A stretch of DNA of 32,024 nt, taken from contig LGGV01000007.1 in the NCBI GenBank assembly GCA_001509095.1, forward strand, positions 1-32,024, given 5' to 3'. The position numbers were made by a program, and so were the translations under genes. Shown piece after piece: positions 391-21,302 of this stretch (positions are counted from its first letter, which is position 1; every line of letters begins with the position of its first letter). The notes under the pieces were generated by a model. The model was not told the DNA's origin and did no database searches. It saw nothing but the letters and a program-made list of their open reading frames with translations. The DNA is from Synergistales bacterium 58_81. Lineage in GTDB: Bacteria; Synergistota; Synergistia; Synergistales; Thermovirgaceae.

Positions 391-1701
391 CTAGGAGGTG
401 AAGATGGTCTGCTCCTCTACCGGCGTCTGGATCGCCCTCAGGGCTCTCTCTAGAAGCTCCCGCCTCACAGCCCTGTCGCCCTCGGCGTCTCTCGAGGGGT
501 CGCCCACAGGGTGGGGGATGGCAACGCCGGGCACGATCCTGTTCGCCCCCACCGTCAGCATTATGGGAACTATGGTGGCTATCTGGACCACCGGTATCCC
601 TGCCGTGTTCTCGATCTCCCTTGCCATCGATGCACCGCACCGGGTACAGGTGCCTCAGGTGGAGGTAAGTATGACCGCATCCACACCGTCCTTCTTGAGC
701 CTTTCGCCGATCTCCTGGCCGAACCTCTCAGCATGGGCCACGGCGGTACCTGTCCCGGTCGTGGTGAAAACGTGATCGTAGAGCTTGCCGAATACCCCCT
801 CCCTCTCCATCTCCCTCATTATGTCGAGAGGGAGGACCCTATCGGGATCCTCGTTGGCCCACACCCGGTCATAGCCACCGTGGATGGACTCGAAGTTCTC
901 CGGGGTCAGGTCGTCAAGGCGGGAGATGTCGTAAACACCGTAGGATTCTGCCGATGAGACCCTTATATGGTCGGGGTTCCCCCGCGGGACTATGCCTCCG
1001 GAGCTTACCAGTGCTATGGTGGCATTTTTCAGGTCTTTCACCGGTTCCGCCGGAGGTATGCGTCTGAATACGGGCATCTCATACTCGGTGGAAAAGGGCT
1101 CTCCTGCAAGTTTCCTGAGGAGCATGTCAACGGCCCTCTTCGCCCCGTTGGTCTCGTGGAAGAAGTTCTTCCTGATCCCTCTCGGGAAATACCCTTCATC
1201 CTCTGCGGCGCCGAGAGGGGTCCCCTTCAGGATCTTCACGGCAAGGGCCGATATCGCACCTAGAGCATCCTTCATGCCTCTGGCGCTGTCAGAGGTCTTC
1301 ACGATGAAGGTCTTGGGGCTGTATAGCTCAACGCCCGGATTCTCCTTGTACATGCCCGTAATGGAAGGGATGCGGAGCGTCCCGGTCACGGCCGAACAGA
1401 TATCTCCGCAGGCCACGCCGTAGCGGCCGGCGTTGAACGCGGGACCCGCAACGAGAAGATCAGGCTTGAACTCCCCTATCAACCTGACGCACTCCGCCCT
1501 CGCCTCTTCAAGATGCTCGCCGTAATAGCTGTCCCCGCAGATGACCGTCCCGACCACTACGGCTTCTTCACCGAGGAGGCTCTGTATCTGCATGGCCGGG
1601 CCCACCGCCTCGGGGCGGGCCGAAGGCGGTACGTGGGCCTGTTCCTCTCCCCCCATGCCCGCGAAGAACTGGTTGATATAGCAAACTACTCTCCTGGTCA
1701 T
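391..1701 (-). CDS. grdB: Glycine/sarcosine/betaine reductase component B, selenocysteine subunit
   Basis: This is the selenoprotein subunit of protein B of the Grd reductase. It reductively splits glycine (or sarcosine/betaine) and passes a carboxymethyl group to the Sec of protein A. A conventional reading stops at TGA 655-657, but the same frame continues for 87 more codons to TAG at 391-393. The join reads DAVILTST-U-GTCTRCGASMAREIE, the family's Sec site, placing Sec at residue 349 of 436, the usual length for GrdB. A small hairpin just after the UGA (628-642) supports recoding. The ATG at 1699-1701 follows GGAGAGGGGGCGG and gives the family start MTRRVVCYINQFF; a longer reading from 1833 overlaps grdE and is rejected. 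It lies 19 bases behind grdE. GrdB cannot be separated from the sarcosine (GrdF) or betaine (GrdH) paralogues by eye. No grdA, grdC or grdD is in the window. Confidence 0.93.
628..657 (-). promoter_or_regulatory. Sec codon UGA and bacterial SECIS hairpin in grdB
   Basis: The UGA is at 655-657. After a 12-base spacer, CGGUGC (637-642) and GCAUCG (628-633) pair over six positions, including one G-U, around a GGU loop (634-636). The loop begins 18 bases after the UGA and starts with G. This matches what is known for bacterial SECIS elements bound by SelB: a short hairpin about 16-37 bases downstream with a G at the start of the loop. The hairpin was found by eye and was not folded computationally. 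Confidence 0.7.
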
Positions 1702-1720
1702 TTTCACACCGCCCCCTCTC

Positions 1721-3007
1721 CTATATCCACCGGGCCCCGATCCTGCTGAAACCGAGCTCGTTAGTGGAGCCGATGATCGCCTGCAGCTCAACGAACATGG
1801 AACCGTCCTTCCGGAGACTCTCTCCGGCACCACCCGAGAGGTTGGATATGGAGCTGTCGTAACCCAGTATCCTGTCCATGGCCGGAAGTTCTATCATCTC
1901 GTTGACGTTCCCGGCGGAGACGAAGGCCGTTATCTCCGGGGCGGCGTCGGCCAAACCCTGGCTCTTTCCGTCGGTACCGGCAGCCTCATCGGAAATTACC
2001 ACCGTCCTGATCCCCAGCTTCTCGCACTTGGCGGCGTTCATGCAGAGGTCAGTATCAGGGTTCCCGTAACCCTCTTCGGATACCACTACCCCATCGGCCC
2101 CGAGCATCCTGGCGAGGTTGGCGTTGAACCACGAGGTCCGCTCCTTGCCTGCAAGCCTTGTATCTTCCAGGGTTGGGATGACGCCCAGAAAGACCAGGTC
2201 CTTCCCATGCCTGCTGTAGAGCTCCTCCACTATCGGGTCGTTCAGGTGATGCCACGTAGTGTTCTTGTCGCAGGCTGATACGCAGTTCCCCGAGACCATG
2301 GCACCATCCATCTTTTCATTGGGGTGAATAAGGGTCGGTACCAGGTGCTTCATATCTGCACCGTAGAGGAAAGTGTCGTGGAGAAGCCCCTGGGTTATGG
2401 ACATGCAGAGATAGGCTATCTTTGGAAGGTGAGGGTACCTGGCGGACTCTTCAACGGGCCCTCCCATTTCATAGACCTTTACTTCATCGGCCTTTGAGCC
2501 CCTGCCCTTGTCGGCCAGGTACCACCCCAGCCTGAAACCTGCCTCACGGAGAGCCGCCTCGTAGGAGTGCTGGTCAAGACCTTCGACGGGCTCCACTACC
2601 AGGACCACGTTATTGGTCTGGGAAAAGGGAGAGTAGTCCGCTGCAGGGCCTGACATGTCGATGAGCCCTTCCTGGAAGGCGACAATGGGACCGCAGGTAA
2701 CGACGGCCGCTCCGTCAAGGACCAGTGTCGCTCCCTCACCCACGGTCTGCATCCCTCCCACGAAACCCGGGAAAACCTCCCCCGGGCCGGAAAGCTTGCA
2801 GCGGGGCTCGATAACGTCCTTAACCGGAATGATCCTTACGCTCTCGCCGGGGCGCGCAAACTCCAGCTCGGCCCTGGCAAACCTGTTATCCTTCATGGCT
2901 ACGGAGAGCATCTCCTCACGGTTGACGAACAAGGTCCCCTTCTCGACCTTTGTCTCGTCACCCCATGAGACATTCCTGACCGAAACCTTGTGCAATTCCA
3001 ACCTCAT
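1721..3007 (-). CDS. grdE: Glycine/sarcosine/betaine reductase component B, alpha/beta proprotein
   Basis: This is the precursor of the two carbonyl-containing subunits of protein B (GrdE, or GrdG/GrdI in the sarcosine/betaine forms). In this family the proprotein cleaves itself at an internal cysteine, which becomes a pyruvoyl group. That group forms a Schiff base with the amino substrate. The 428-residue length is normal. The central motif SGNCVSACDKNTTWHH holds Cys242 and Cys246; Cys242 is the likely pyruvoyl precursor by family knowledge. The ATG at 3005-3007 begins MRLELHKVSVRNV and follows GGAGGGGGGATAGCCC. The gene is followed after 19 bases by grdB, so the two B subunits are co-transcribed. 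A perfect TATAAT lies about 50 bases upstream. Substrate preference (glycine, sarcosine or betaine) cannot be read from the sequence. Confidence 0.93.
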   Translation of the reverse strand: MRLELHKVSVRNVSWGDETKVEKGTLFVNREEMLSVAMKDNRFARAELEFARPGESVRIIPVKDVIEPRCKLSGPGEVFPGFVGGMQTVGEGATLVLDGAAVVTCGPIVAFQEGLIDMSGPAADYSPFSQTNNVVLVVEPVEGLDQHSYEAALREAGFRLGWYLADKGRGSKADEVKVYEMGGPVEESARYPHLPKIAYLCMSITQGLLHDTFLYGADMKHLVPTLIHPNEKMDGAMVSGNCVSACDKNTTWHHLNDPIVEELYSRHGKDLVFLGVIPTLEDTRLAGKERTSWFNANLARMLGADGVVVSEEGYGNPDTDLCMNAAKCEKLGIRTVVISDEAAGTDGKSQGLADAAPEITAFVSAGNVNEMIELPAMDRILGYDSSISNLSGGAGESLRKDGSMFVELQAIIGSTNELGFSRIGARWI

Positions 3008-5346: not shown

Positions 5347-5382
5347 ACGACCGCCCCCTCTCGCGAAGATCCGGCAGATATT

Positions 5383-5958
5383 CTAGAAAGCGAACTTCTG
5401 GTAGTCTTTCGGGATCTCGAACAGCGCCTTGTCCTGGGGCCCTTCCTTGATGTTCGTGTAGGTCACGGTCACCTTGCCATCCTCGTCCTCGGTGACTCCC
5501 CTGATCGGGAAATTAAGCTTCTGGGCTATCCAGATCACGGAACTCCCCATGGCCTGTCGGTCCGGATCCTTGTAGTTGACCTCGTACTTGTCGCACTTGT
5601 AGCCCTCTATAGTCTCCGTCCCGATCTTCTTAAGGTCAGCTTCATCGGAGAGCCAGCCTTCGATATCCTCGTCACCCAGGACTATCTGTGCGTTGGGGAA
5701 CTCCATGTACATCTTCTCCTGGGGCATGATGACGTACATGATGTTCTTTGCCCCGTCTACGATGCCGATGCTCTTGCCTCCGCCCGGGACATCCATCTCC
5801 TGTCGCATGAGGCTTCCGCTTACGAAGATCTTTCCTATGACCGTCTCTTCTCCGCCCTCCATCTTCATGTCCGCCTGGAACTCAGCGGCGAAAGCGGAAC
5901 AGGAAAGGGTCATAACCACGACAACGGACAGGAACAGGATCAGCCTTCTCTTGCTCAT
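5383..5958 (-). CDS. Exported DUF4412-type protein (LolA/LppX-like fold)
   Basis: A 191-residue protein with a clear signal peptide: basic MSKRR, a hydrophobic stretch, then CSAFAAEF. The mature part shows the DUF4412 pattern of repeated beta strands: MKMEGGEETVIGKIFVSG, then IMYVIMPQEKMYMEF, then TIEGYKCDKYEV. Such proteins resemble outer-membrane lipoprotein carriers in fold, but their function is unknown. The single Cys in SCSAFA could suggest a lipobox, but it is not followed by a good +2 residue context, so cleavage by signal peptidase I at AFA is more likely. The start ATG at 5956-5958 has GAGGGT about eight bases upstream. A longer reading adds 15 residues before the signal peptide and is rejected. 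It is divergent from the DUF6305 gene. Confidence 0.75.
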   Translation of the reverse strand: MSKRRLILFLSVVVVMTLSCSAFAAEFQADMKMEGGEETVIGKIFVSGSLMRQEMDVPGGGKSIGIVDGAKNIMYVIMPQEKMYMEFPNAQIVLGDEDIEGWLSDEADLKKIGTETIEGYKCDKYEVNYKDPDRQAMGSSVIWIAQKLNFPIRGVTEDEDGKVTVTYTNIKEGPQDKALFEIPKDYQKFAF

Positions 5959-6080: not shown

Positions 6081-6196
6081 TCGACCATAAGATAAATATG
6101 AGAAATATTCTGGACATTTCGCATCCCTGGCCTTTAATGGTCGCAGGAGACTTATCATTTCTGGCCCCATGCCGGATAAAAGTGGAGGTGTTCCAA

Positions 6197-6754
6197 TTGC
6201 GGACAACTACAAGGAGGGCCGCCCTGTTCCTCCTGGCGGCGATCATCCTTATCTCGGCATCCTCCGTGGCCTTTGCCGCCCAGGTGGCCCTTACCTCGGT
6301 CGGGCAGAGCCCCGATGCCATGATGGTAATGGTGGTGCTGAAGAACATGAAGGTCGAGACCGACTTCGATGCGCTGATGAAACCTGAAGACCTTTCAGGA
6401 CATAAGGTCCTTATTGCCGTTGTCGGCGGAAGTTCAAAGGGCCTGGGCGCTGCAGGCATCAACCAGGAGCAGGAGAGGGACAGGGCCCTTGCCCTGATCG
6501 ACAAGGCAAAAGAGACCGGTGCCAGGATACTTGTCATGCACGTGGGTGGGGCCGGAAGAAGAGGTACCCTCTCCGACATGTTCATCGAAGCGGTGGTCCC
6601 TCTTGCGGAGCGTATTACCATCGTCAAAGGCGGGAACCTGGACGGTCTCTTCGACAGGATCAAGGGGGAGAACGTCCCTGTCACCGAGGTAGAGACCATA
6701 AGGGCCATCGAAGAGCCGCTGAAAAGTGATCTCTCTGACTGGGGAGTCCTCTAG
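6197..6754 (+). CDS. DUF6305 family periplasmic protein
   Basis: A 185-residue exported protein. It begins at TTG 6197, six bases after a strong GGAGGTG, and has a signal peptide (RTTTRR, a hydrophobic core, then SSVAFA). The mature protein carries two typical stretches, ALTSVGQSPDAMMVMVVL and LIAVVGGSSKGLGAAGI, then HVGGAGRRGTLSDMFIEAV and IVKGGNLDGLFDRI. I recognise these as the DUF6305 family, whose function is not established. The GGSSKGLG and HVGG segments alternate with beta-like strands, suggesting a small alpha/beta (Rossmann-like) fold. It is ten bases from the following DctM-like permease. It may therefore be the periplasmic partner of that permease in place of a DctP-type binding protein; this is inference from position only. 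Confidence 0.8.
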   Translation: MRTTTRRAALFLLAAIILISASSVAFAAQVALTSVGQSPDAMMVMVVLKNMKVETDFDALMKPEDLSGHKVLIAVVGGSSKGLGAAGINQEQERDRALALIDKAKETGARILVMHVGGAGRRGTLSDMFIEAVVPLAERITIVKGGNLDGLFDRIKGENVPVTEVETIRAIEEPLKSDLSDWGVL

Positions 6755-8064: not shown

Positions 8065-8208
8065 ATGACGATCATCTACAGGGCTATAGCCCTTTTCATA
8101 CTGGTTTTCGTCTTCCGCTGCATGTTCAGGGAGAAGGACTTCTGGAAACAGGTCACCGCAACGATGGTGGTCATTCCGTTGATCCTCAGGATCCTTCTGA
8201 TCAAGTAG
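8065..8208 (+). CDS. Small membrane protein of 47 residues
   Basis: A short frame, ATG 8065 to TAG 8208, sits behind a near-perfect ribosome site: AGGAGGT about nine bases before the ATG. The product begins MTIIYRAIALFILVFVFRCM, has a charged middle (REKDFWKQ) and ends with a second hydrophobic stretch before the terminal ILLIK. That suggests two short membrane segments. It fills the space between the DctM-like permease (13 bases) and the aspartoacylase-like gene (13 bases), so it belongs to the operon. It is much smaller than DctQ but could act as a reduced accessory subunit of the permease. I do not recognise a named family. Confidence 0.75.
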   Translation: MTIIYRAIALFILVFVFRCMFREKDFWKQVTATMVVIPLILRILLIK

Positions 8209-9440: not shown

Positions 9441-11156
9441 ATGAAAAAGGCAGCGGCGATCCTTCTGGCAATATCGCTGACAATGGCTGCAGGTGCGGCT
9501 TTTGCGGTAGAGGCAGAAGAGGTAATGGCAAAGAACGGGATGGTTTCCTCGGCCCATGAACTGGCGTCGAGGGCAGGGGTTGAGATCATGCAGAGGGGCG
9601 GCAATGCAGTTGATGCGGCCATAGCCACCATGCTCGCTCTGAACGTAGTGGAGCCCAACGCCTCAGGAATAGGCGGAGGGGGCTTCATGGTGATCAGGAA
9701 CGCAAAGACCGGTGAAGTGGTGTTCCTTGATTATCGTGAAACGGCACCGGCTTCCGCCACCAAAGACATGTACGCTTCCCAGCAGTCCAAGGATGAGAGC
9801 TGGTCCAAGGTCGGCGGCAAGGCCGTCGGGGTGCCTGGGCAGATATTCGGAATATTCGCAGCCCTTGAGAACTACGGGACCATGACTTTCGCGGAAGTGG
9901 CGGTACCCGCCATCAGGCTTGCCGAGGAGGGTTTCGAGGTCCACCCGATGCAGACGGGTATTATTGCCGACAACTACGACAAGATAGCAAAGAACAACGA
10001 TCTGGATGACCTTGCCTTCTTCGAGGACGGACTCCCCATCGAGGCGGGAAAGATCCTGAAGCAGCCCAGACTTGCCGAGGCCTTCCGCCTTATCGCGGAG
10101 CATGGGGTCAACGCGATGACCGAGGGACCCATAGGCGAATCCGTTGTCGCAGCGGTCAACCGCGCCGGGGGGAAGATGACCATGGGTGACCTCAAGAACT
10201 ACCAGGTCAAGATAGGAGATCCTGCCTACGGGACCTACAGGGGCTACCATATCTACTCCACGCCTCCCGCTTCGAGCGGCGGGACTCACATCGTCCAGTT
10301 GCTGAACATTCTCGAGAACTTCCCCATCAGCTCAATGAAGCACAACTCTCCCCAGTACCTGCATACCCTCGCCGAGGCAATGAAGCTCGTCTTCGCCGAC
10401 CGGGGCAAGTACATGGCCGATACGGCCTTCGTGGACGTACCGCTGCGGGGCCTGACGAGCAAGGAGTACGCAAGGGAACTGGCCAGAAAGATAAGGGTCT
10501 ACGAGGTAATGCAGGAGGTCCAGCCCGGTGATCCATGGCCCTACAACGGGGGCAACGAAACTGTATTCCTGGGCGGAGGAGGCAACAAGCATATCTCCAC
10601 GAGTCACTTTTCCGTCGTTGACAAGGAGGGGAACATTGTAGCCTCTACCAACACCGTCAACTACTTCTTCGGATCAGGGGTCTTCTCTACCGAGTACGGG
10701 TTCGTCCTTAACAACGAGATGGACGACTTCTCCCAGAACCCCGATAGCGTCAACGCTCCCGAACCGGGCAAACGACCCCTTTCTTCCATGTCGCCTTCAA
10801 TAGTCCTCGATCCTCACGGACAGCCCTTCATGACCCTAGGGGCCGCCGGCGCAATGAGGATAATCACTGCTGTCACACAGATCATAATGAACGTCATCGA
10901 CTTCGGCATGCATATGGATGAGGCCATCGAACAGCCCAGGATCTTTGCTTTCTCCTCGGGCGGTCAGAGCGGCCCCCTTCGCGTCGAAGAAACAATGAAC
11001 GAGACCACCATCCAGTTCCTGAAACTCAGGGGGCACAACGTGGAGGTCCAGCCCAGGGGCGGCTACTACGGTACGGCACAGGGTATACTCTTCATCGACG
11101 GGATGATGAACGGCGGCGCTGACAGTCGCCGTCTGGGCGTGCCGGTAGGCTTCTAG
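9441..11156 (+). CDS. ggt: Gamma-glutamyltransferase, exported
   Basis: A 571-residue Ntn-hydrolase precursor that splits gamma-glutamyl amide bonds (glutathione, gamma-glutamyl peptides, or poly-gamma-glutamate in CapD-like relatives). It has a signal peptide (MKKAAAILLA to AAFA). The family blocks are in order: GGNAVDAAIA (residues 53-62), NASGIGGGGFM (73-83), YRETAP with Arg99 as the likely alpha-carboxylate contact, and GVPG. Autoprocessing should occur before Thr387 in STSHFSVVD, making that Thr the nucleophile. Then come NNEMDDF and RPLSSMSPSI with the oxyanion-hole serines 448 and 449. Length and motifs indicate an intact enzyme. GGGAGG precedes the ATG. A terminator follows, and pgsB starts just after it, so a role in trimming or releasing a gamma-linked glutamyl product is plausible but unproven. 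Confidence 0.95.
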   Translation: MKKAAAILLAISLTMAAGAAFAVEAEEVMAKNGMVSSAHELASRAGVEIMQRGGNAVDAAIATMLALNVVEPNASGIGGGGFMVIRNAKTGEVVFLDYRETAPASATKDMYASQQSKDESWSKVGGKAVGVPGQIFGIFAALENYGTMTFAEVAVPAIRLAEEGFEVHPMQTGIIADNYDKIAKNNDLDDLAFFEDGLPIEAGKILKQPRLAEAFRLIAEHGVNAMTEGPIGESVVAAVNRAGGKMTMGDLKNYQVKIGDPAYGTYRGYHIYSTPPASSGGTHIVQLLNILENFPISSMKHNSPQYLHTLAEAMKLVFADRGKYMADTAFVDVPLRGLTSKEYARELARKIRVYEVMQEVQPGDPWPYNGGNETVFLGGGGNKHISTSHFSVVDKEGNIVASTNTVNYFFGSGVFSTEYGFVLNNEMDDFSQNPDSVNAPEPGKRPLSSMSPSIVLDPHGQPFMTLGAAGAMRIITAVTQIIMNVIDFGMHMDEAIEQPRIFAFSSGGQSGPLRVEETMNETTIQFLKLRGHNVEVQPRGGYYGTAQGILFIDGMMNGGADSRRLGVPVGF

Positions 11157-11196: not shown

Positions 11197-11222
11197 GGGG
11201 CGGCCATTGAGCCGCCCCTTTT
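11197..11222 (+). terminator. Rho-independent terminator between ggt and pgsB
   Basis: GGGGCGGC and GCCGCCCC form a perfect eight-base-pair stem around CATTGA, followed by TTTT. The T-run is short and the pgsB ribosome site (GGAGGTG) begins about six bases later, so partial readthrough into pgs is possible. Confidence 0.75.
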
Positions 11223-11239: not shown

Positions 11240-12214
11240 TTGAGAAACACCTGGCCCCCCTACCGGATCCTGCTCACCGGGACCCGCGGCAAGAGCACGG
11301 CCGTTCGCTACATTGCCGCAGCCCTGGATTCCATCGGCATATCCTTTTCGGCCCGGATCACCGGGACTGTTCCCATGGTCATTGAAGGTCTCCAGGAGAA
11401 AAGGATCGTCCGCAACTCGCCGGCCCACATATCGGAGATGATCTGGTGGATCAGGAATATCCCCGAAGGCACGCAGGCCGTTGTGGCCGAGAACAGCGCC
11501 GTTTCCCCTGAGCTGCAGCCTCTTTCGGCTCGATGGCTGGACCCGGGACTGATCGTATGGACCAGCGTGCTCCCCGATCACGCGGAGTACTGGGGACCTC
11601 ACCTTTCGGGGGCAAGGGAAGCACTCCTCAATGGTGTTCCCAGAAGCTCCAGGGTGCTTTTGGGCAACCAGGCCGGGCAGGACCGGGAACTGGTCCTAGC
11701 CCTGGAGAAGATGAAATGTACCCTTTTTACGACAGGAATGCCTGTTGAAGAACTGTCCCATCAGTATGAAACGATCGCCGTGGAGGCACTCAACATCCTT
11801 GGTCTCCCCGGATCGGAGGCCTCTTTCCGGAGGGTCCCCATAGATCCCCATGAATTCCGGATAGTGAACCCCCGCCGGGGCGGAGCAGTAGCCTGGGCGT
11901 TCTCCTCCAACGACCCCGTGACGGCTGAGGCACTCTTCCGCTCGACGGGCTGGGACCAGGAGCGAACGGCGTTACTCTTCAACCACAGGCACGACCGCCC
12001 CTCCCGGCTTTCGGCTCACCTCCCCTGGATCAGGAACGGAAGATGGAAGAGAAGGATCATCACCGGCGACCGCCCCCTCGTCCTCACCGGTTTCAGCTTT
12101 TTCCCGCCTTCCAGCGCCGAGGCCCTGGCGGACCTTGTCAGAAGCGAGGGCACCGTCTTCGGTTGCGGCAATGTCAGGGGCCTCCCTTTTGCATGGGAGG
12201 TCGAAGCATCGTGA
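11240..12214 (+). CDS. pgsB: PgsB/CapB-like poly-gamma-glutamate synthase ligase
   Basis: A 324-residue Mur-ligase-like protein. PgsB/CapB activates the gamma-carboxyl of glutamate with ATP and, with PgsC and usually PgsA, builds poly-gamma-glutamate at the membrane. The Walker-type loop RILLTGTRGKSTAVRYI covers residues 9-25 with GTRGKST at 14-20. It is followed by AENSAVSPELQPLSARWLDPG and VLPDHAEYWGPH, matching the family's ALQPELQ and LDH blocks. It is shorter than B. subtilis PgsB (about 390 residues) and lacks an N-terminal membrane segment, which is odd for this family. The start is TTG 11240 behind GGAGGTG; the longer reading begins inside the terminator. The stop overlaps the pgsC start by four bases. 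No pgsA is nearby, so the product may not be a classic capsule polymer. Confidence 0.85.
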   Translation: MRNTWPPYRILLTGTRGKSTAVRYIAAALDSIGISFSARITGTVPMVIEGLQEKRIVRNSPAHISEMIWWIRNIPEGTQAVVAENSAVSPELQPLSARWLDPGLIVWTSVLPDHAEYWGPHLSGAREALLNGVPRSSRVLLGNQAGQDRELVLALEKMKCTLFTTGMPVEELSHQYETIAVEALNILGLPGSEASFRRVPIDPHEFRIVNPRRGGAVAWAFSSNDPVTAEALFRSTGWDQERTALLFNHRHDRPSRLSAHLPWIRNGRWKRRIITGDRPLVLTGFSFFPPSSAEALADLVRSEGTVFGCGNVRGLPFAWEVEAS

Positions 12215-12627
12215 ACAGGGAGATACTGGTCATAGCCATTGGAATAGCTCTTGGGATGCTGTTTTTCCACAGGACAGGACTCTCCCCCGGCGGCATTATC
12301 TCCCCCGGGATCCTTGCCCTGCACATGAACACTTTTCACGCCTTTGCATGGACCCTTGCCTTTTCTCTTTTCATCTTCTTCCTCCTAGAGATCGCTGTGC
12401 GCATCTTTGGCCTCTACGGTCGCCAGAGGACCGCCCTGTCGCTGCTTTTGGCAGCCCTGACGGCTCTTCTTGCTCTGGGCCGGTTGCCCCTTGACCCTCT
12501 TTGGCTCGGATGGGTGGTGCCGGGCCTCGTGGCCTCCGATATCCAGCGCCAGGGGCTATTGCCTACAGTATCTGCGCTCCTGTCCCTGGCAGGGGTGACT
12601 TTCCTTGCCGGAGGACTTCTGCCTTGA
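12211..12627 (+). CDS. pgsC: PgsC/CapC-like membrane subunit of poly-gamma-glutamate synthase
   Basis: A 138-residue, very hydrophobic protein with about five membrane segments. The N-terminus reads VNREILVIAIGIALGMLFF, then TGLSPGGIISPGILAL, the conserved PgsC/CapC motif. The length is close to that of B. subtilis PgsC. PgsC forms the membrane complex with PgsB and is required for polymer synthesis. The start is GTG 12211, overlapping the pgsB stop in GTGA, with GGGAGG about ten bases upstream. This overlap indicates translational coupling and a fixed stoichiometry with PgsB. The end overlaps pgsW in the same manner (TTGA). Confidence 0.87.
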   Translation: MNREILVIAIGIALGMLFFHRTGLSPGGIISPGILALHMNTFHAFAWTLAFSLFIFFLLEIAVRIFGLYGRQRTALSLLLAALTALLALGRLPLDPLWLGWVVPGLVASDIQRQGLLPTVSALLSLAGVTFLAGGLLP

Positions 12628-13652
12628 AAGGGGTCTTCTCCATCCTGAAGAAGGGTGTTAACCGGCAGACGGCAAGTATCGCTCTCTGGGCACTCCTGGT
12701 GGCAACGCTGGTATGGTTGCCCGGCGGCAGCCCCCTCTCCCCGGAGGAATCAAGGCTTCTTCAAAGGATCGAGGCGGCCTGGGAATCGCTACTGGCCCTT
12801 AGAAGCGAAACCGGCGTGCCCCACTCAGAGACTGACGACCCACATAGATCGGGGATGATAGGGGTGGAGTGGAGTCCCATTACAACAACTTCCGGTAGTC
12901 TCGCCTCGAAGCAGTTGTCCGTCCGGCCCGGCTGGGCTGTGATCTTCCGAAGGTGGTTTGCCCGTGAGGGTCTGGGACCCGGCGACAGGATAACCATTCT
13001 CAGTTCAGGCTCCTTCCCCGGCCTTGCTGTGTCTTCCCTGGCCGCGGCAGAGTCTCTTGGCCTGGACGTGACCCTGGTGATCTCTCTGGGATCCTCCACG
13101 TGGGGGGCCAATATTCCTTCGATGACGATCTCCGATATCCTCTACTTTCTCAGGACAAGGGGGTTCGTAAGAACCAGGGCCGCCGCCTGCACCATCGGCG
13201 GAGCCGGCGAGATGGGTAGGGACCTCCCGCCTGAAGGGCTTTCAGCTCTCGAGGAAGCAGCTCGAAGGGATGTTATCCCTTTGATCATCGCCGAAGACCT
13301 TGAAGAGATGATCGAACGGAAGGCCGCGGTCTCCCTGCCGGAAGGTACCCGTCTCGTGGTCCAGATAGGCGGGAGTCACGCCGATCTCGGTAGCGATCCC
13401 TCCGTGCTTGACCTCCCCCCGGGGTTCCTGCGACCCTCTCCAGGTTTGAAGGCCGGTAATGGCGTTGTCTCCAAGGCTCTGGAAAGGGGTATAACGGTCC
13501 TCCACGTCCTGAACATCCCTGAACTTGCCCGTTCGGCAGGCCTTGAAGGGAGATACTCCCTGCCATGGGCAAGACCACCCTGGCGATTCCTCGTCGCCGC
13601 CACTTCAGGAATGATCGTACTGAGTCTTTTCCGACGGTGGGAGCTTGAATGA
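12624..13652 (+). CDS. pgsW: Poly-gamma-glutamate system protein (PgsW-like)
   Basis: A 342-residue protein starting at TTG 12624 behind GGAGG (eight bases) and overlapping the pgsC stop by four bases. It has one membrane segment near the N-terminus (IALWALLVATLVWLP) and one at the C-terminus (FLVAATSGMIVLSLF). The large soluble part between them, probably outside the membrane, carries GDRITILSSGSFPGLAVSSL and LVISLGSSTWGANIP. I recognise this as the poly-gamma-glutamate system protein family that accompanies pgsBC where pgsA is missing. Its biochemical role is not known. The GSSTWGAN and IGGAGEMG stretches suggest a phosphate- or nucleotide-like binding fold, which is only a guess. It ends with ATGA shared with the histidine kinase. 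Confidence 0.75.
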   Translation: MKGVFSILKKGVNRQTASIALWALLVATLVWLPGGSPLSPEESRLLQRIEAAWESLLALRSETGVPHSETDDPHRSGMIGVEWSPITTTSGSLASKQLSVRPGWAVIFRRWFAREGLGPGDRITILSSGSFPGLAVSSLAAAESLGLDVTLVISLGSSTWGANIPSMTISDILYFLRTRGFVRTRAAACTIGGAGEMGRDLPPEGLSALEEAARRDVIPLIIAEDLEEMIERKAAVSLPEGTRLVVQIGGSHADLGSDPSVLDLPPGFLRPSPGLKAGNGVVSKALERGITVLHVLNIPELARSAGLEGRYSLPWARPPWRFLVAATSGMIVLSLFRRWELE

Positions 13653-15046
13653 TAACCCGTGGAGAGAGGACCATTGAAACCTCTGGAGGCATGTCCACCC
13701 AGGCTCTCTGGGGAACGATACTCCTGGCTGCCTGGGGTGTCTCCCATTTCTACGAGAGACCTATCTACCACGTCTTCCGGTTCCTCGACCTGTCCGTAAG
13801 GTATGACGACAGCGGCTATCTCCTGGCTGCGACCGCCGTCCTTGTCGTCATCAACGCTGCCAGGGCCCTGCTCCTTTACGAGGGGTGGTTTCTGGTAGGT
13901 AACGGTGCTGCCGAGGCCACCGGCCACAGATCGGTGGGGCGCGTCCTCCCCCTCGTCGGTATACCTGTATGCTACCAGGCCGTGGCGGTATTCGACTTTC
14001 CATCCATACCCCATTTCGGAATGCCGGCGGTGCTTGGCCTGGCGAGCGTCCTGTTGGTCCAGTACCTTACCCGGGGCGTGACCGGATGGATCAACCGCGC
14101 CGTAGCGCTTTTCCCCCTCCTGGTATCCTTTCAGTGGCTTGACGTAATTCCTTCCCTAACAAAGTACGGATTCGGCTGGGGAGAGATCTCCATGGCGATC
14201 AAGCAGATCGCGGAGCTGCCGAATAAGACCCTCGTCCTGGACCTGGTAGGGGGTACCTTCTTCCTCTTCCTCTTTGCGGGAGCGCTTCTCACCATAGAGC
14301 TTCTTGTAAGCTACGAGCGGCAGCTGGAACAGTTCCGGCGTTTCAGGGCCCAGGAGAGAGAACTTTACTCACTCAAGGAGCAACAGCTCCAGTCCAGGGC
14401 GATCAGGGAGATGCAAAACCTTGTTCACGACCTGAGGCGACCCCTTACGACCATAGTCGGCCTGTCGGACGTGATCTCCGAGGAGGGATCCGAAAATTCC
14501 CGCAGGCACGCCTCGGTGATACTGAAGGCATCCGGATCCATGGATCAGATGATCTCCGAGATCCTTGACGCTGCCTCGGCCCGTACCGTGACCGTCTCCG
14601 CCCTGGTGGATTACTCTCTGAGCCAGGTAAGCCCAATGGATTGGAGCCCCTCTATTGAGGTGGATATCCCCCACGAATGCGGCAAGGTCCTCCTGAACGT
14701 CAACGCCGTAAGGCTCTCCAGGGCCCTGGCGAACCTTCTCGACAATGCGGCCAGGGCTTCATCCACCTCACCGGAGGGGGTGAGGATCCGCCTGACGGCA
14801 AGATCATCCCAGGGCTGTATAAAGATCTCCGTGGAAGATAACGGCCCGGGATTCATCCAGCGACCTAAGGCTCACCGTTCGGGCTGGGGTTCAACCGGCC
14901 TGGGGCTGGTCTTCGTTCAGGAGGTGGTCAGAGATCACGGAGGCAAGGTTACCTTCGGGGAAAGCCCCCTGGGCGGCGCTTCGGTTACACTTTCTCTGAA
15001 ACGGGTAGGTGACCGGGGAGAAGATAAGGAAGGTGGATCGAATTGA
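13649..15046 (+). CDS. Membrane sensor histidine kinase
   Basis: A 465-residue kinase. The N-terminal half holds about six membrane segments (residues 18-220) with no large extracellular domain, so the sensor is within or just outside the membrane. A coiled linker (about 222-250) leads to the dimerisation/H-box NLVHDLRRPLTTIVGLSDV with phosphoacceptor His260. The catalytic domain has the N-box ANLLDNAARAS, the G1 box EDNGPGF and the G2 box STGLGLVFVQEVV. All key blocks are present. It starts at ATG 13649, overlapping the pgsW stop, and ends in TTGA shared with its response regulator. Being translated with pgsBCW suggests that it monitors or is controlled by the same surface product; that link is inferred from position. 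Confidence 0.92.
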   Translation: MITRGERTIETSGGMSTQALWGTILLAAWGVSHFYERPIYHVFRFLDLSVRYDDSGYLLAATAVLVVINAARALLLYEGWFLVGNGAAEATGHRSVGRVLPLVGIPVCYQAVAVFDFPSIPHFGMPAVLGLASVLLVQYLTRGVTGWINRAVALFPLLVSFQWLDVIPSLTKYGFGWGEISMAIKQIAELPNKTLVLDLVGGTFFLFLFAGALLTIELLVSYERQLEQFRRFRAQERELYSLKEQQLQSRAIREMQNLVHDLRRPLTTIVGLSDVISEEGSENSRRHASVILKASGSMDQMISEILDAASARTVTVSALVDYSLSQVSPMDWSPSIEVDIPHECGKVLLNVNAVRLSRALANLLDNAARASSTSPEGVRIRLTARSSQGCIKISVEDNGPGFIQRPKAHRSGWGSTGLGLVFVQEVVRDHGGKVTFGESPLGGASVTLSLKRVGDRGEDKEGGSN

Positions 15047-15681
15047 CCATTTACCTTGGTGCAGTGGATGACGACACGGGCATTCTCTACACGCTGGAGG
15101 CCATGGCCTCCCTACAGGGGTGGGAGATGAAGACCACTACCAGGCCCCGGGAAGCACTTGACTGGATCAGGAAAGACTTGGTGGACATACTGCTCGTGGA
15201 CTTTCACATGCCGGGCATGAGCGGTCTGGAAGTCATCAGGGAGGCCAGGAAGATCTCCTCAGAGACGATCCTGCTGGTGCTTACCGTCGAGGAGTCACCA
15301 GGTATAGCAGAGAACCTCCACATTGCAGGAGCTGACGACTTCATTTCCAAGCCTCTCAGGCTGGCGGATTTCACTTCCCGGATCGCCCTTCACGCAGAGT
15401 TGTGCAGGTACAGACGGTTGGGGCGTCGGAACCAGCCCCGGAAGGGTCTTTCCGAGGGTATTGCAAGAAGGGTCCTTGAAATTGTAAGCAGCGGCGAAAG
15501 CCCCGTCGATGTCAGAACCGTTGCAGAAAAGGCAGGCATCTCCTACCCTTCTGCTCATCGATACCTGGAGTTCCTCGTCTCCAAGGGGAGCATCGCCAAA
15601 AGGAGCCTGAACGTGGACGGCAGACCGGGAAGACCCCGGTCCATCTATCAACTGACCTTAAAGGACACGCCCCGTGAGTGA
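15043..15681 (+). CDS. Response regulator, CitB/DpiA-like, with C-terminal helix-turn-helix
   Basis: A 212-residue two-component regulator. The receiver domain (residues 3-120) has the acidic pocket VDDD (9-11), phosphoacceptor Asp53 in VDFHMPGMSG, a Thr in LVLTVEES and Lys in FISKPL. The C-terminal half carries SPVDVRTVAEKAGISYPSAHRYLEFLVSKG, a winged helix of the type seen in citrate/fumarate response regulators (CitB, DcuR). The start is TTG 15043, overlapping the kinase stop by four bases; GGAAGG lies upstream. It is the evident partner of the preceding kinase. Targets are unknown, but the pgs operon, the MFS gene promoter and the neighbouring transport operons are candidates. Confidence 0.92.
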   Translation: MTIYLGAVDDDTGILYTLEAMASLQGWEMKTTTRPREALDWIRKDLVDILLVDFHMPGMSGLEVIREARKISSETILLVLTVEESPGIAENLHIAGADDFISKPLRLADFTSRIALHAELCRYRRLGRRNQPRKGLSEGIARRVLEIVSSGESPVDVRTVAEKAGISYPSAHRYLEFLVSKGSIAKRSLNVDGRPGRPRSIYQLTLKDTPRE

Positions 15682-16948
15682 CCTTTCTGGATACTTGGGA
15701 TCCCTGAAAGGGTGCCGTATACTCGGGATCAATCCACCAGTGAGAGATTTCGCCTTCTTCGACCTCTGGGCCAAACCCATGGGGCTCCTCTATATTCTCG
15801 GCGCCCTAAGGGAACAGCAAAACCACGTAAACCTCATCGACTGCATAAGTGATTCGTCCTCTGCCGACAGAAGATATGGAAGAAAGGCCCCCAAAAGGTT
15901 TGAGATCCCAAAACCGGAGGCCTACCGGGGGATCCCGAGACGTTACTGGCACTTCGGACTTACCCGAGAGGAGCTGGCCTCCAGGGTGCACTCCCTACCC
16001 CGTCCTGACCTGGTCCTGGTCACATCCTCAATGACATACTGGTACAAGGGTGTCTTCTGGTGCATAGAGCAGCTACGCAAGATCCTGCCCGGCGTACCGG
16101 TGGTCCTCGGAGGAGTTTATCCTGTTCTCTGCCCGGACCACGCCCTCCTTTCCGGCGCGGATGAGATCCAGACAGTCCCGATGCCCCTGCCAGTATCCAT
16201 GCCGGCAATGGACCTTTACCGCCGGCTGTCCTACGGCGTAGCCATTACATCCACGGGGTGTCCGCGAAGATGCTCCTACTGCGCCTCTTCCCTTCTGTGG
16301 CCTTCGTTTATCCAGAGGAACCTCCGGGACCTGATGGCCGAGATAGACCTCCAGATCGACCTAGGGGCCGCAGATCTGGCTTTCTACGACGATTCCCTTC
16401 TGATCGGAAAGGAAGATCACTTCTACCCGATCTGCGAAGAACTGGCCGCCAGGCACCCCGGACTCCGGCTCCATACCCCTAACGGGCTTCACGTACGTGA
16501 GATCGATCACACCTGTGCATCCACGCTTTACCGTACCGGGTTCAGGACCATCCGCCTCAGTCTGGAGGGCATCGACCCCGCCAATCGCCAGGCGGGGGCC
16601 CGGAAGACCTCCCCTGGGGATTACTCGGCCGCAGTGGCCAACCTCCTGGAGGCCGGTTTCAGACCAGACCAGGTGGAGACCTATGTCCTGGCGGGGCTCC
16701 CGGGCCAGAGAGCATACGATGTCGCAAGTTCGATCGGTTTCGTCCGTTCCATGGGGGCAAGGGCGAAACTGGCCCAGTTCTCCCCCATCCCCGGGACCCC
16801 CCTGTTTAACGAGGTCGTCCGGACGCACCCCGAGGTCCAGGAAGAACCTCTCCTTCAGAACAACACCTTCTACTCCCCCTACGTATCCGGAGAGATCACA
16901 CCCGAGGAGCTTCAGTCCCTCAAGGATCTGGCAAGAACCCCTGGTTGA
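15674..16948 (+). CDS. B12-binding-type radical SAM protein
   Basis: A 424-residue protein. The N-terminal part (about 13-160) resembles the cobalamin-binding domain of radical SAM proteins: ILGINPPVRDFAFF, LLYILGALREQ and PVVLGGVYPVLCPDHAL. The core has the iron-sulphur motif CPRRCSYCA (CxxxCxxC), followed by DLAFYDDSLL and TGFRTIRLSLEGID, as in the Elp3/MiaB-like fold. The usual DxHxxG cobalamin loop is not obvious, so B12 may not be bound. Such proteins perform methylations or carbon-carbon chemistry on metabolites, lipids or peptides. The start is GTG 15674, overlapping the response regulator stop by eight bases, so it belongs to the pgs operon. This is an unusual companion for poly-gamma-glutamate genes. 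The substrate is unknown. Confidence 0.85.
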   Translation: MSDLSGYLGSLKGCRILGINPPVRDFAFFDLWAKPMGLLYILGALREQQNHVNLIDCISDSSSADRRYGRKAPKRFEIPKPEAYRGIPRRYWHFGLTREELASRVHSLPRPDLVLVTSSMTYWYKGVFWCIEQLRKILPGVPVVLGGVYPVLCPDHALLSGADEIQTVPMPLPVSMPAMDLYRRLSYGVAITSTGCPRRCSYCASSLLWPSFIQRNLRDLMAEIDLQIDLGAADLAFYDDSLLIGKEDHFYPICEELAARHPGLRLHTPNGLHVREIDHTCASTLYRTGFRTIRLSLEGIDPANRQAGARKTSPGDYSAAVANLLEAGFRPDQVETYVLAGLPGQRAYDVASSIGFVRSMGARAKLAQFSPIPGTPLFNEVVRTHPEVQEEPLLQNNTFYSPYVSGEITPEELQSLKDLARTPG

Positions 16949-17016: not shown

Positions 17017-18165
17017 ATGACCTCATTTCAAGCGTTGACTGCCAAATTCTTTACCGGCAACTTTGCGATAATGGCCTTCGGAGATCTTTACTTCATCCTC
17101 GCCCTGTACCTGCAAGATATGGGGATCACAGACCCCAGGACCCTGGGGTGGATCCTGGGGATTTATTTTGCGGCTTCAGCGTTCACCCGGCCGCTCTCGG
17201 GCTTCATAATTGAAAAATTCTCCTTCAGGCGGGTAATGCTGACGGCATCGCTGCTGTGCCTTGCCAGCGGAGCAGGTGTTGCCCTCGCCGGGACCTCGGT
17301 CTCCCTGATCCTGGTCTTCAGGGCCCTGACGGGTTTCTCATCGAGCCTTTTCCTGGTGGGGCTCACCACCTACCAGGCCCTTGTGGTCCCCGAAGAGATA
17401 AGGGGTTCTTCCTTCACCCTTGCCAGCGCCGGTACCATCGCCCCCCTCATCGCGATCCTCCCTGTCGCAGAGTGGCTTCTGAAGAACGGCCACAAGTACA
17501 TCTACATATGGTCGCCCATCCTCCCTGCCATCCTCTGCCTGACCGTTGCCGCCGCCATACCGCCCGCCGATGACCTGGCCCTGAAGAAAGGCAACTGGGG
17601 GACCTACTCGGAGATATTTCGCATAAAAGCATCGAGGACGCTTCTAACCTCTGTGGTCCTCTTCGCCATGACCGACGCTGTCATAATCTCCATGGCCGGC
17701 CTTGCCATGGAGAGAGGCGTACTCGCCTCCTCGTTCATCTCGTCCCAGGCTCTCACCGGGCTGATGGTCAGGCTGTTCGGCTACAGGCTTATGGACCGCC
17801 TGCCCAGAAGCAGGCTGGCCGCCCTGTGCTTCTCCGTAACGGCATTAGGCTCCGTGGCGATCACCTTCGTCAACTCCAACGGGGGGATGATCTTCTGGGG
17901 TATTGTTTACGGAATAGCAATGGGGTACGGGTTCCCCCTCCACCTATCTCTTATCGGCGACGCCGTCCCGGAAAGGCTCAGACCCAAGGGCACCTCCCTG
18001 GTATGGTTCGTAATGGCCGGATGCTACTTCATCTCTCCCGTTCTGACAGGCTTCATCGCAAGATGGCTGAATTTCTCATGGGCCTTCAGGATAATATGCG
18101 GCACGATCATCCTCTGTGCCCCCCTGATGCACAAAGAGTTCAAGAAGTCCTTTGAGAGGACATAA
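17017..18165 (+). CDS. Major facilitator superfamily transporter
   Basis: A 382-residue protein with about twelve membrane segments. After the second segment it shows LSGFIIEKFSFRRVML, the position of the MFS loop 2-3 signature, and a related DRLPRSRLAAL in the second half. The ATG at 17017 is chosen because AAGGAG lies about nine bases upstream. A TTG at 16945 would overlap the preceding stop but falls within the promoter. MFS proteins move small solutes or drugs by proton coupling; nothing in the sequence fixes the substrate. It may export or import a product of the upstream pgs/radical SAM operon. No clear terminator follows. Confidence 0.85.
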   Translation: MTSFQALTAKFFTGNFAIMAFGDLYFILALYLQDMGITDPRTLGWILGIYFAASAFTRPLSGFIIEKFSFRRVMLTASLLCLASGAGVALAGTSVSLILVFRALTGFSSSLFLVGLTTYQALVVPEEIRGSSFTLASAGTIAPLIAILPVAEWLLKNGHKYIYIWSPILPAILCLTVAAAIPPADDLALKKGNWGTYSEIFRIKASRTLLTSVVLFAMTDAVIISMAGLAMERGVLASSFISSQALTGLMVRLFGYRLMDRLPRSRLAALCFSVTALGSVAITFVNSNGGMIFWGIVYGIAMGYGFPLHLSLIGDAVPERLRPKGTSLVWFVMAGCYFISPVLTGFIARWLNFSWAFRIICGTIILCAPLMHKEFKKSFERT

Positions 18166-18258: not shown

Positions 18259-18311
18259 ATATTTGCACCTTTCCTCACAAGGTGACTATCCTTAAGGGGG
18301 GGTTTCTCAGA

Positions 18312-19253
18312 ATGAGAAGAGGAGTGAAGATTCTGGTCCTTGCGATGGTGATGGCCGGCCTTGTGGCGGGAGCAGCATCAGCTGTTACCTTCATCAACAT
18401 CGCCACGGGGAGCACAGGGGGGTCCTACTATCCTCTAGGAGCGGCAATGGCCAAGATATGGAATGACAACATTGATGGCATCAAGGCCAGCGCACAGTCC
18501 ACAGGCGGCACCGTCAACAACATCGAACTGATGGGCAGCGGAGAGGCCGAAGTGGCCTTCATGGACGGGCTCTACTACTACGCCTACCTGGGAATGGACA
18601 AATTCGAGGGTAACCCCCAGGACCATATCAGGGCCCTTGTCCCCCTCTACCCGGAGCCGACCCAGCTCATGGTCGCCAAGGGAAGCGGGATCAAGACACT
18701 TCAGGACTTCAAGGGCAAGAGAGTCTCCATCGGGGCCGTTGCCAGCGGTACAGAGGTAACCGCCCGGCAGCTTCTGAGGCTTGCGGGGATCGACCCTGAC
18801 AAGGATATCCAGGCCGAGAACCTCGGTGTTGGCGACACCGCCTCCGCTTTCAGCGACAACAGGATCGACGCTGCGGTGATGGTAGGTTCCCTTGGGATGG
18901 CCGGCGTAATCGAGGCCACCACCCTGGGAGTTGTCGAGTTCATCGATGTCCCCGACGACATCCGCGACAAGGTCATCGCCGAGACCCCCTACTGGGTGCC
19001 CTTCAACATCCCGGCGAACTTCTACTCCAATCAGCCCAATGAAGTCAAGACTTACGCAAGCTGGAACATCCTCGCCATCCACAAGGACGTGGACGGCGAC
19101 CTGGCCTACCAGATGACCAAGGCTCTGTTCGAGCACAAGGATGACCTCCTCGCCGTTCGTGCCACCATGGAGACCATGATACCCGATAACATCGAGTACA
19201 TCCTTATCCCCATTCACTACGGCGCCAAAAGGTATTACGACGAAGTATTGTAG
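18312..19253 (+). CDS. TAXI-family TRAP transporter solute-binding protein
   Basis: A 313-residue periplasmic binding protein. A signal peptide (MRRGVKILVLAMVM to ASA) precedes the TAXI hallmark INIATGSTGGSYYPLGAAMA. Further typical stretches are STGGTVNNIELMGSGEAEVAF and IGAVASGTEVTARQLL. Known members bind glutamate, glutamine or 2-oxoglutarate-like compounds; the ligand here cannot be read from sequence. The ATG at 18312 follows a run of seven G about eight bases upstream; the GTG-type start ten codons earlier overlaps that site. It is followed, after a stem-loop, by its fused permease. A strong promoter precedes it. Confidence 0.93.
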   Translation: MRRGVKILVLAMVMAGLVAGAASAVTFINIATGSTGGSYYPLGAAMAKIWNDNIDGIKASAQSTGGTVNNIELMGSGEAEVAFMDGLYYYAYLGMDKFEGNPQDHIRALVPLYPEPTQLMVAKGSGIKTLQDFKGKRVSIGAVASGTEVTARQLLRLAGIDPDKDIQAENLGVGDTASAFSDNRIDAAVMVGSLGMAGVIEATTLGVVEFIDVPDDIRDKVIAETPYWVPFNIPANFYSNQPNEVKTYASWNILAIHKDVDGDLAYQMTKALFEHKDDLLAVRATMETMIPDNIEYILIPIHYGAKRYYDEVL

Positions 19254-19283
19254 GAGCACGACTCATTAACGAGATCTGACAAC

Positions 19284-19318
19284 AGGGCCCGGGTCGGGGA
19301 ATTTACCGCCCGGGCCCT
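19284..19318 (+). other. Strong stem-loop between binding protein and permease genes
   Basis: AGGGCCCGGG (19284-19293) and CCCGGGCCCT (19309-19318) pair perfectly over ten bases around a 15-base loop. Only TTA follows, so it is not a full terminator. It probably protects the upstream mRNA end or reduces readthrough, giving more binding protein than permease, a pattern common in binding-protein transport operons. Confidence 0.7.
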
Positions 19319-19337
19319 TATGAGAACGGGGTTTGAC

Positions 19338-21302
19338 ATGGACCAGGGAAAAACCGCCCAGACACCACTGGTACAGGAGATCCATAAGGAAGAACTCCAG
19401 AGTATCGTAGAGAAGTACGACATAGAGAGCCGATACAGAAGGCCCGCAGGCTTTCCCAAGATCGTCGTTTCCGTCTGGCTCATAGCCATGTCCCTCTTTC
19501 ACCTGTACACCGCAGGGATAGGCCTTCTGCCGACTTCGATCCACCGTGCCGTCCACCTTACCTTCGCCATCGTCGCCGTCTTCCTGCTCTACCCCGGGCG
19601 CAAGGGGCAGGACAAGACCAGGATACCCTGGTATGACTGGATCCTGGCTGCAACGGCCGGTGTAGGCACAGGGTACATCGTCTTCTTCTTCAACGAGATC
19701 GCCCGGAGAGGAGCCCAGGTCCAGCCCCACGAGGTCTGGCTCGGCGTCCTGACCATTGTGATGGTCCTTGAGGCCGGGAGAAGGGTTGCGGGAAAGGTTC
19801 TCCCCACCCTCAGCATCCTCTTCCTCCTCTACTGCTACTTCGGACGATACATGCCCTACATGTTCATGCACCGGGGCTACTCCATCAACCGGATAATCCA
19901 GCACATGTACCTGACCCAGGAGGGGATCTTCGGTGTTGCCCTCGGGGTTTCGAGCACGTTCGTTTTCATGTTCATCCTCTTCGGCGCCTTTCTGGCCAAG
20001 AGCGGAGGGGCCAGATTCTTCAATGAACTGGCACTGGCAATTGCGGGGCACTCACCCGGAGGACCTGCAAAGGTCGCCATTGTGGCCTCCGGTCTTCTGG
20101 GGACCATCAACGGCTCCTCCGTTGCCAACGTGGCCACAACGGGAGCCTTCACTATCCCGCTCATGAAAAAGGTGGGCTACAAGCCTGAGTTCGCAGGGGC
20201 CGTCGAAGCCTGCGCCTCCACCGGGGGCCAGTTCATGCCGCCCATCATGGGAGCCGGGGCTTTCATAATGAGCGAATTCCTGGGGATCTCCTACCTCAGG
20301 ATAGCGGCTGCCGCTATTATTCCTGCGGTACTCTACTACTCCGCCCTTTTTATCGCCGTACACCTCAGGGCCAGGCACAGGAACCTGGAAGGGCTTTCGA
20401 AAGAAGTTCTCCCTGCCCTGAAGGATGTGCTTGTAAAGGACGGCCATCTTGTTGTCCCCCTGGTAGTTATAATCGGAATGCTCCTGAACAGGTTCACCCC
20501 CCTGGCAGCGGCGTTCTGGGGAATCATCAGCGTAGTTGCCGTAAGCCTGGTCCGCAAACACACCCGGATGGGGATCAGGGAGACCCTTGGGGCACTTGAA
20601 GAGGGTGCCAGGGGTGCCCTCGGAGTCGCCATAGCCTGTGCTCTTGTCGGGTTCATAGTAGGCACGTCTTCGTTGACGGCTCTTGGCCTGACTATCTCCA
20701 ACAACATTATCGACATCTCGAAGGGGCTTCTCTTTCCCACGCTGCTGCTTTCAATGGTGGCCTGCCTGATACTGGGCATGGGCCTCCCCACAACAGCGAA
20801 CTACATTGTGACAAGCACAATGATCGCCCCGGCCCTTATAAAAATGGGCGTTCTGCCCCTTGCGGCACACCTCTTCGTCTTCTATTTCGGTATAATGGCT
20901 GACCTCACTCCTCCTGTCTGTCTTGCCGCCTTCACAGGGGCCGGCATAGCGGGGGGGAACCCTAGCACAACAGGCTTCCAGGCCACCCGGATAGCCCTTG
21001 TGGCCTACCTTATCCCTTACACTTTTATCTACACGCCCGTAATACTGCTTGAAGGCGCGACCTGGCTCCCCCTGACCATAGTCATTGTCGCATCCATGGC
21101 CGGAGTTATGGGGCTGGCCGCCGCACTCCAGGGGTGGATGTTCGACAAGCTCAACGTTCCTGTAAGAGCTATTCTTCTAGCGGCGTCATTTGCTGCTTTC
21201 CTGCCTGATTATCGCCTAAAGGTTATCTCTGCGCTTTTCATCGCCGGTTCCCTGGCTACGATAAAGTTCTTCAGCAACCGCAAAGTATCGCAAGCCGCCT
21301 GA
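19338..21302 (+). CDS. TAXI-type TRAP transporter permease, fused DctQ-DctM (4TM/12TM)
   Basis: A 654-residue membrane protein. The N-terminal part (about residues 45-165) holds the small-subunit-like segments. The rest is the large DctM-like domain with GLLGTINGSSVANVATTGAF, CASTGGQFMPPIMGAGAF and ILGMGLPTTANYIVTSTMI, then FGIMADLTPPVCLAAF. These are standard for TAXI-TRAP permeases, which use a sodium gradient. The ATG at 19338 is preceded by GGGG at seven bases; an ATG six codons earlier is tied up against the stem-loop. Together with the preceding binding protein it forms a complete transporter. A strong terminator follows. Substrate is probably glutamate or another organic acid, by family knowledge. 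Confidence 0.93.
   Translation: MDQGKTAQTPLVQEIHKEELQSIVEKYDIESRYRRPAGFPKIVVSVWLIAMSLFHLYTAGIGLLPTSIHRAVHLTFAIVAVFLLYPGRKGQDKTRIPWYDWILAATAGVGTGYIVFFFNEIARRGAQVQPHEVWLGVLTIVMVLEAGRRVAGKVLPTLSILFLLYCYFGRYMPYMFMHRGYSINRIIQHMYLTQEGIFGVALGVSSTFVFMFILFGAFLAKSGGARFFNELALAIAGHSPGGPAKVAIVASGLLGTINGSSVANVATTGAFTIPLMKKVGYKPEFAGAVEACASTGGQFMPPIMGAGAFIMSEFLGISYLRIAAAAIIPAVLYYSALFIAVHLRARHRNLEGLSKEVLPALKDVLVKDGHLVVPLVVIIGMLLNRFTPLAAAFWGIISVVAVSLVRKHTRMGIRETLGALEEGARGALGVAIACALVGFIVGTSSLTALGLTISNNIIDISKGLLFPTLLLSMVACLILGMGLPTTANYIVTSTMIAPALIKMGVLPLAAHLFVFYFGIMADLTPPVCLAAFTGAGIAGGNPSTTGFQATRIALVAYLIPYTFIYTPVILLEGATWLPLTIVIVASMAGVMGLAAALQGWMFDKLNVPVRAILLAASFAAFLPDYRLKVISALFIAGSLATIKFFSNRKVSQAA

Follow-up and report, generated by a model that had tools for sequence, protein, structure and literature searches.

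A PgsBCW gene cassette with candidate processing and uptake functions in Synergistales, lying ahead of a resident radical SAM gene

The window analysed here, a stretch of 32,024 nucleotides (contig LGGV01000007.1, Synergistales bacterium 58_81), carries genes for relatives of the poly-gamma-glutamate (PGA) synthesis proteins PgsB and PgsC and for PgsW, followed by those of a histidine kinase (HK), a response regulator (RR) and a B12-binding radical SAM protein. An earlier note, made from the sequence alone, had taken these six genes to be one system. We find that the conserved unit begins about 5 kb upstream of pgsB, from position 6197, and that it very probably comprises DUF6305, a DctM-type permease, a microprotein, an AstE-like hydrolase, gamma-glutamyltransferase (GGT), pgsB, pgsC, pgsW, HK and RR (about 6.1-15.7 kb), without the radical SAM gene. 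Its gene content and order, its conservation across phyla, the lack of PgsA, the empty site in relatives, the family memberships and the catalytic motifs are all direct observations. As for function, we lean towards a reading, with predicted chemistry, in which the cassette would make and export a gamma-glutamyl chain, process it outside the inner membrane and recover the products.

The extent of the unit emerges from its distribution, for which families were assigned with Pfam and NCBIfam profiles (scores are written as bits/cut-off). The series DUF6305-permease-AstE-GGT-PgsB-PgsC-PgsW-HK-RR is present in other Synergistales genera and families (f1, f6 and f9) with no radical SAM gene alongside. 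Searching the species-genome collection for PgsW returned 80 loci, which lie in Synergistota, Bacteroidales, Ignavibacteriales, Marinimicrobia, SAR324, Lysobacterales, Comamonadaceae, Dethiosulfatarculus, Halanaerobiales, Spirochaetes and others. The cassette without its regulators recurs in Bacteroidales, Ignavibacteria, Marinimicrobia, SAR324, Lysobacterales, Comamonadaceae and others, and never with PgsA at the loci examined. Outside Synergistota, we counted neighbours at the 17 PgsW loci flanked on either side by 8 kb or more: PgsB and PgsC are near PgsW at all 17, AstE at 16, GGT at 14, DctM and DUF6305 at 13 each, HK and RR at one each, and radical SAM at none. At 15 Synergistota loci the corresponding counts are 13 each for PgsB and PgsC, eight each for GGT, AstE, DctM and DUF6305, seven each for HK and RR, and one for radical SAM, this being in the closest relative (G001).

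The main argument that DUF6305 and PgsW serve one process is that they occur together, since 30 of 61 Synergistales genomes have both, while three have PgsW alone, two DUF6305 alone and 26 neither (p about 1e-11), and the co-occurrence includes genomes in which the two genes lie far apart. Because these genomes are relatives and hence non-independent, this and the other p-values serve as guides only. Several points weigh against a single cycle of production and recovery: its parts are non-adjacent in several genomes; the three PgsW-bearing genomes just counted show no DUF6305; PgsB and PgsC both score under their NCBIfam equivalog cut-offs; and in a second flavour of the locus the uptake part can be found with no PgsBC. 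This second flavour, found in several genomes (loci L094, L095, L097 and L195-L203), combines DUF6305, permease and AstE with what we take, by recognition of its sequence, to be a C69 dipeptidase, and sometimes with a secreted PgsW that has no C-terminal transmembrane (TM) segment. In genome G018 a C69 peptidase takes GGT's place ahead of pgsBCW. Some genomes have up to seven DUF6305 genes.

The radical SAM protein, which the earlier note had made a modifier of the pgsBCW product, was rejected as a member of the system. Its overlapping start codon and its adjacency to the cassette in three genomes would fit such a role, but we now hold it to be highly improbable, since its occurrence shows no phylogenetic association with that of PgsW. 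With orthologues called at E below 1e-40, the 61 relatives divide into 17 with both genes, 15 with the radical SAM gene only, 16 with PgsW only and 13 with neither (Fisher p=1.0). The two genes adjoin in 3 of the 17 genomes holding both, G000, G001 and G004, and close relatives carry the radical SAM gene without the cassette, as the 17 cassettes from other phyla do without the radical SAM gene. The order pgsB-pgsC-pgsW-HK-RR-radical SAM, proposed as something to look for in other genomes, is found as far as RR in many Synergistota, but extends to the radical SAM gene only in G000, G001 and G004. In one other genome, G018, PgsW and the radical SAM gene lie 3 kb apart; we regard this proximity as a coincidence, the two being convergent with two genes in between, which by recognition of their sequences are presumably those of malic enzyme and argininosuccinate synthase.

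Genomes of the same genus show what the site looks like when it is empty. In G002 and G003 the radical SAM gene directly follows the upstream DUF4412 gene with a gap of about 320-340 bp, and DNA alignment brings window positions ~5382-5904 and 15675 onward together at that distance, so that the 9.8-kb block from DUF6305 to RR is absent as a unit. Behind the radical SAM gene both have the MFS gene, as in the window, and G003 also has the TAXI and large DctM genes; the MFS gene is conserved beside the radical SAM gene. Between flanks that stay constant, the whole cassette is either there or missing in a single piece, and the radical SAM gene behind it is a resident. Given that two genera have the site occupied (G000 and G001; G004) and others have it empty, the simplest history would be one old acquisition with later losses. 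The radical SAM protein itself represents a conserved Synergistales family: 32 of the 61 genomes have it, at 46-73% identity once the closest relative is set aside. It has no solved relative, and outside its own family of genomes its neighbours vary.

The kinase and regulator belong to the cassette. The same HK-RR pair follows pgsBCW, or else GGT, in many Synergistota and also at one Halanaerobiales and one Bacillota locus. Where pgsBCW is located elsewhere (L201, L204, L207 and L211) the series DUF6305-permease-AstE-GGT is followed directly by HK-RR, so that the pair goes with the GGT and uptake part. Dedicated regulation, which the earlier note put as dedicated sensing, is thereby supported, and the label "CitB-like" for the regulator is fair, as RR weakly matches the DpiA-like HTH_64. 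Upstream of the DUF6305 gene, a 27-base element at 6090-6116 can be aligned with the corresponding region of six other Synergistota loci and is a candidate promoter or operator; a looser pattern, itself derived from the aligned sites, has one match genome-wide even at three mismatches. A hairpin with a T-run lies in the gap between GGT and pgsB. Several other Synergistota loci have one of varying sequence at the corresponding place, so that the cassette may consist of two transcription units or be attenuated. Over the whole region a simple terminator scan gave no excess relative to shuffled sequences, and the weight therefore rests on the hairpin's repeated position.

Among the synthesis genes, the PgsB-like protein scores 75 bits on TIGR04012 against a cut-off of 222.7, and is over the cut-off for Mur_ligase_M; its profile matches MurD and FolC structures, and in alignment it keeps the P-loop GTRGKST and other residues invariant in 26 relatives. 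It is, as the earlier note had described it, short and free of a membrane segment. This also holds for relatives from Synergistota, SAR324, Lysobacterales and Dethiosulfatarculus, whereas the Bacteroidales and Ignavibacteria proteins have an N-terminal TM segment; its absence is a lineage trait. PgsC is over the cut-off of PF14102 (90/27 bits) and under that of TIGR04011 (71 bits against 96). With PgsB and PgsC both below equivalog level, the product need not be poly-gamma-glutamate. It may be the shorter or modified gamma-glutamyl compound suggested earlier. The absence of PgsA was confirmed: its profile, PF09587, has zero matches in the source genome, which is 93% complete, and none at 120 PgsW or radical SAM loci.

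PgsW, likewise correctly recognised in the note, is a member of its family by curated cut-off (TIGR04332, 291/100 bits); the sole description of this family in NCBIfam is "poly-gamma-glutamate system protein". An AlphaFold2 (AF2) model (pLDDT 91.9) shows an alpha/beta domain flanked on each side by a TM helix, and this domain probably lies outside the inner membrane, because the charge distribution and the secreted PgsW variant suggest so. The AF2 model of DUF6305 (pLDDT 94.5) is that of a one-domain alpha/beta exported protein. Good as they are, the models gave no reliable fold match for PgsW and no convincing one for DUF6305 in the PDB, so that function was not read from the fold. A literature search, thin on subscription journals, found no functional papers on PgsW or DUF6305, and for the product name "poly-gamma-glutamate system protein" it found a single paper, containing a Francisella mutation table.

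The upstream genes bear on whether the locus builds a conventional PGA surface layer, with PgsBCW making PGA, a GGT that acts like CapD to anchor or release it, and no more than recycling left to AstE and the permease. Such a layer would agree with a capsule survey in which CapB and CapC were the only genes required and in which PGA capsules are already listed as especially abundant among Synergistetes and Fusobacteria (PMC5542703), and with the presence of GGT at 14 of the 17 loci outside Synergistota. The GGT (TIGR00066, 512/358 bits), however, resembles ordinary bacterial GGTs, its closest solved relatives (4y23, E=1e-117), far more than CapD (3g9k, E=4e-40), and a CapD-type assignment does not hold. 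Conservation of the dedicated permease, the microprotein and DUF6305 is roughly on a par with that of GGT, PgsA is lacking, and the related-looking Francisella capBCA locus is described in a review as required for virulence and apparently dispensable for the capsule (PMC4688374). Together these make a conventional surface layer unlikely in our view.

The permease matches both the DctM domain PF06808 (45.6/23.8 bits) and PF03606, and its neighbours in the cassette are DUF6305 and the microprotein, with no DctP substrate-binding protein or DctQ. A strict script found the microprotein in 63 of 66 permease-AstE gaps across phyla, and a looser run gave candidates in the other three; most end in P-[LF]-x-[LM]-R-x-x-x-[ILV]-K (P-L-x-L-R-x-L-x-I-K in the window), and no Pfam family was matched. 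The AstE-like hydrolase has the motifs GTHPNE, NRAHPG and FDLHE and weak PDB matches to the succinylglutamate desuccinylase/aspartoacylase family.

In this enzyme family PgsB links glutamate through its gamma-carboxyl group, with PgsC as its membrane partner and PgsA as the third protein in Bacillus. In the cycle of production and recovery that we favour, PgsB would activate the gamma-carboxyl of glutamate and extend a gamma-glutamyl chain at the inner face, with PgsC as the membrane part and partner of PgsB, and PgsW, its anchored domain outside the inner membrane, would fill the role that PgsA has in Bacillus. GGT, by transfer or hydrolysis, and the AstE-like hydrolase would then process the chain outside the inner membrane, acting on gamma-glutamyl or acyl-amino-acid bonds, and the DctM-type permease would take up the anionic products, aided by the microprotein and DUF6305 as accessory subunits of an unusual kind. 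HK-RR would sense a signal of the cycle and control the block, while the radical SAM gene would be a neighbour of the insertion site, left downstream of the cassette. We infer the identity and length of the chain, the order of events, the direction of transport, the signal, and the roles of PgsW, DUF6305 and the microprotein. A further proposal, put forward only tentatively and with a low probability, is that in many phyla PgsBCW would export short gamma-glutamyl donors, which GGT and the AstE-like enzyme would use outside the inner membrane, the products being imported by a new kind of DctM transporter with DUF6305 and the microprotein in place of DctP and DctQ.

The same genes could also serve a gamma-glutamyl uptake cycle, a Meister-like scheme without glutathione, in which PgsBCW would export oligomers as GGT donors, external amino acids or peptides would be tagged, and the DctM system would import them. 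Many hosts of the cassette live on amino acids, glycine/betaine reductase genes adjoin the cluster, and a gamma-glutamyl maker, GGT, hydrolase and importer are conserved as a set, all of which would suit it; yet the ATP cost seems high for an anaerobe, and the C69 flavour does without PgsBC. We consider this cycle improbable, slightly more so than a surface layer.

The features of the locus are collected in Table 1. As the earlier note had stated, the six genes from pgsB to the radical SAM gene form an overlapping chain, the computed overlaps being 4 bases at each of the PgsB/PgsC, PgsC/PgsW, PgsW/HK and HK/RR junctions and 8 at RR/radical SAM. All six reading frames are open throughout, and the phospho-acceptor histidine of HK, the acidic residues of RR, the radical SAM cysteines and the PgsB P-loop are retained. 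Next after the radical SAM gene is the MFS gene, its likeliest start an ATG at 17017, 68 bases past the radical SAM end, followed at 18282-21302 (+) by genes for a TAXI-type TRAP receptor and a large DctM-type permease, a flank conserved with the radical SAM gene. On the other side, component genes of glycine/sarcosine/betaine reductase at 655-3007 (-) fit an amino-acid-fermenting host.

Table 1. Features of the cassette and its surroundings in the window
Feature	Position	Strand	Basis or context
DNA element AGATAAATATGAGAAATATTCTGGACA, candidate promoter/operator (predicted function)	6090..6116	+	5' of DUF6305
DUF6305 protein, exported, single alpha/beta domain, 185 residues, TTG start	6197..6754	+	PF19823
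DctM/DcuC-type permease, 428 residues	6765..8051	+	PF06808, PF03606, hydropathy
47-residue two-TM microprotein	8065..8208	+	conserved in permease-AstE gaps
AstE/AspA-like zinc hydrolase, N-terminal membrane/export segment	8213..9364	+	PF24827, motifs
GGT, exported, Thr nucleophile in STSHF	9441..11156	+	TIGR00066, motif
GC-rich hairpin then TTTT, GGT-pgsB gap, putative terminator or attenuator	11197..11218	+	
PgsB-like Mur-ligase-family amide ligase, 324 residues, no TM, TTG start	11240..12214	+	TIGR04012 below cut-off
PgsC, about 4 TM	12211..12627	+	PF14102 over cut-off
PgsW, N- and C-terminal TM, alpha/beta domain in between	12624..13652	+	TIGR04332
Membrane HK, about 5-6 TM, H-box VHDLRRP	13649..15046	+	HisKA+HATPase
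RR, receiver + IclR/DpiA-like HTH	15043..15681	+	HTH_IclR; weak HTH_64
B12-binding radical SAM protein, flanking neighbour, judged outside the system	15674..16948	+	B12-binding + Radical_SAM, CPRRCSYC

The system is a variant of PgsBC-type gamma-glutamyl synthesis whose set of partners we did not find described: the literature searched held no description of the complete cluster, of the microprotein or of a role for PgsW, and a published search for PgsB and PgsC turned up 250 species (PMC4497714). With the Bacillus PgsBCA(E) and CapBCA(D)E systems it shares a Mur-ligase-like PgsB with a P-loop, PgsC, a membrane-anchored third protein and a GGT-family enzyme nearby (capD), whereas it has PgsW for PgsA, a short, TM-less PgsB below the equivalog cut-off and a GGT of ordinary type, and adds AstE, the permease, DUF6305, the microprotein and HK-RR. 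The likeness to Francisella capBCA rests on the papers' description of a set of B, C and a third protein bearing the PgsW family name, CapA there being annotated "poly-gamma-glutamate system protein" (PMC5362203), which is also the product name that TIGR04332 carries. Like TRAP transporters (DctPQM), the cassette pairs a DctM-type permease with one exported and one small membrane protein, but these are the one-domain DUF6305 and the two-TM microprotein in place of DctP and DctQ.

Homologues of PgsB and PgsC are routinely scored as capsule genes, and in many phyla they stand without PgsA, beside PgsW, GGT, a hydrolase and a dedicated transporter. A conserved microprotein without a name and a DctM permease with unusual candidate partners are further points of interest in the cluster. 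If the cycle of production and recovery is true, many capsule predictions outside Bacilli would need revision, and the unsettled Francisella capBCA locus would gain a testable comparison.

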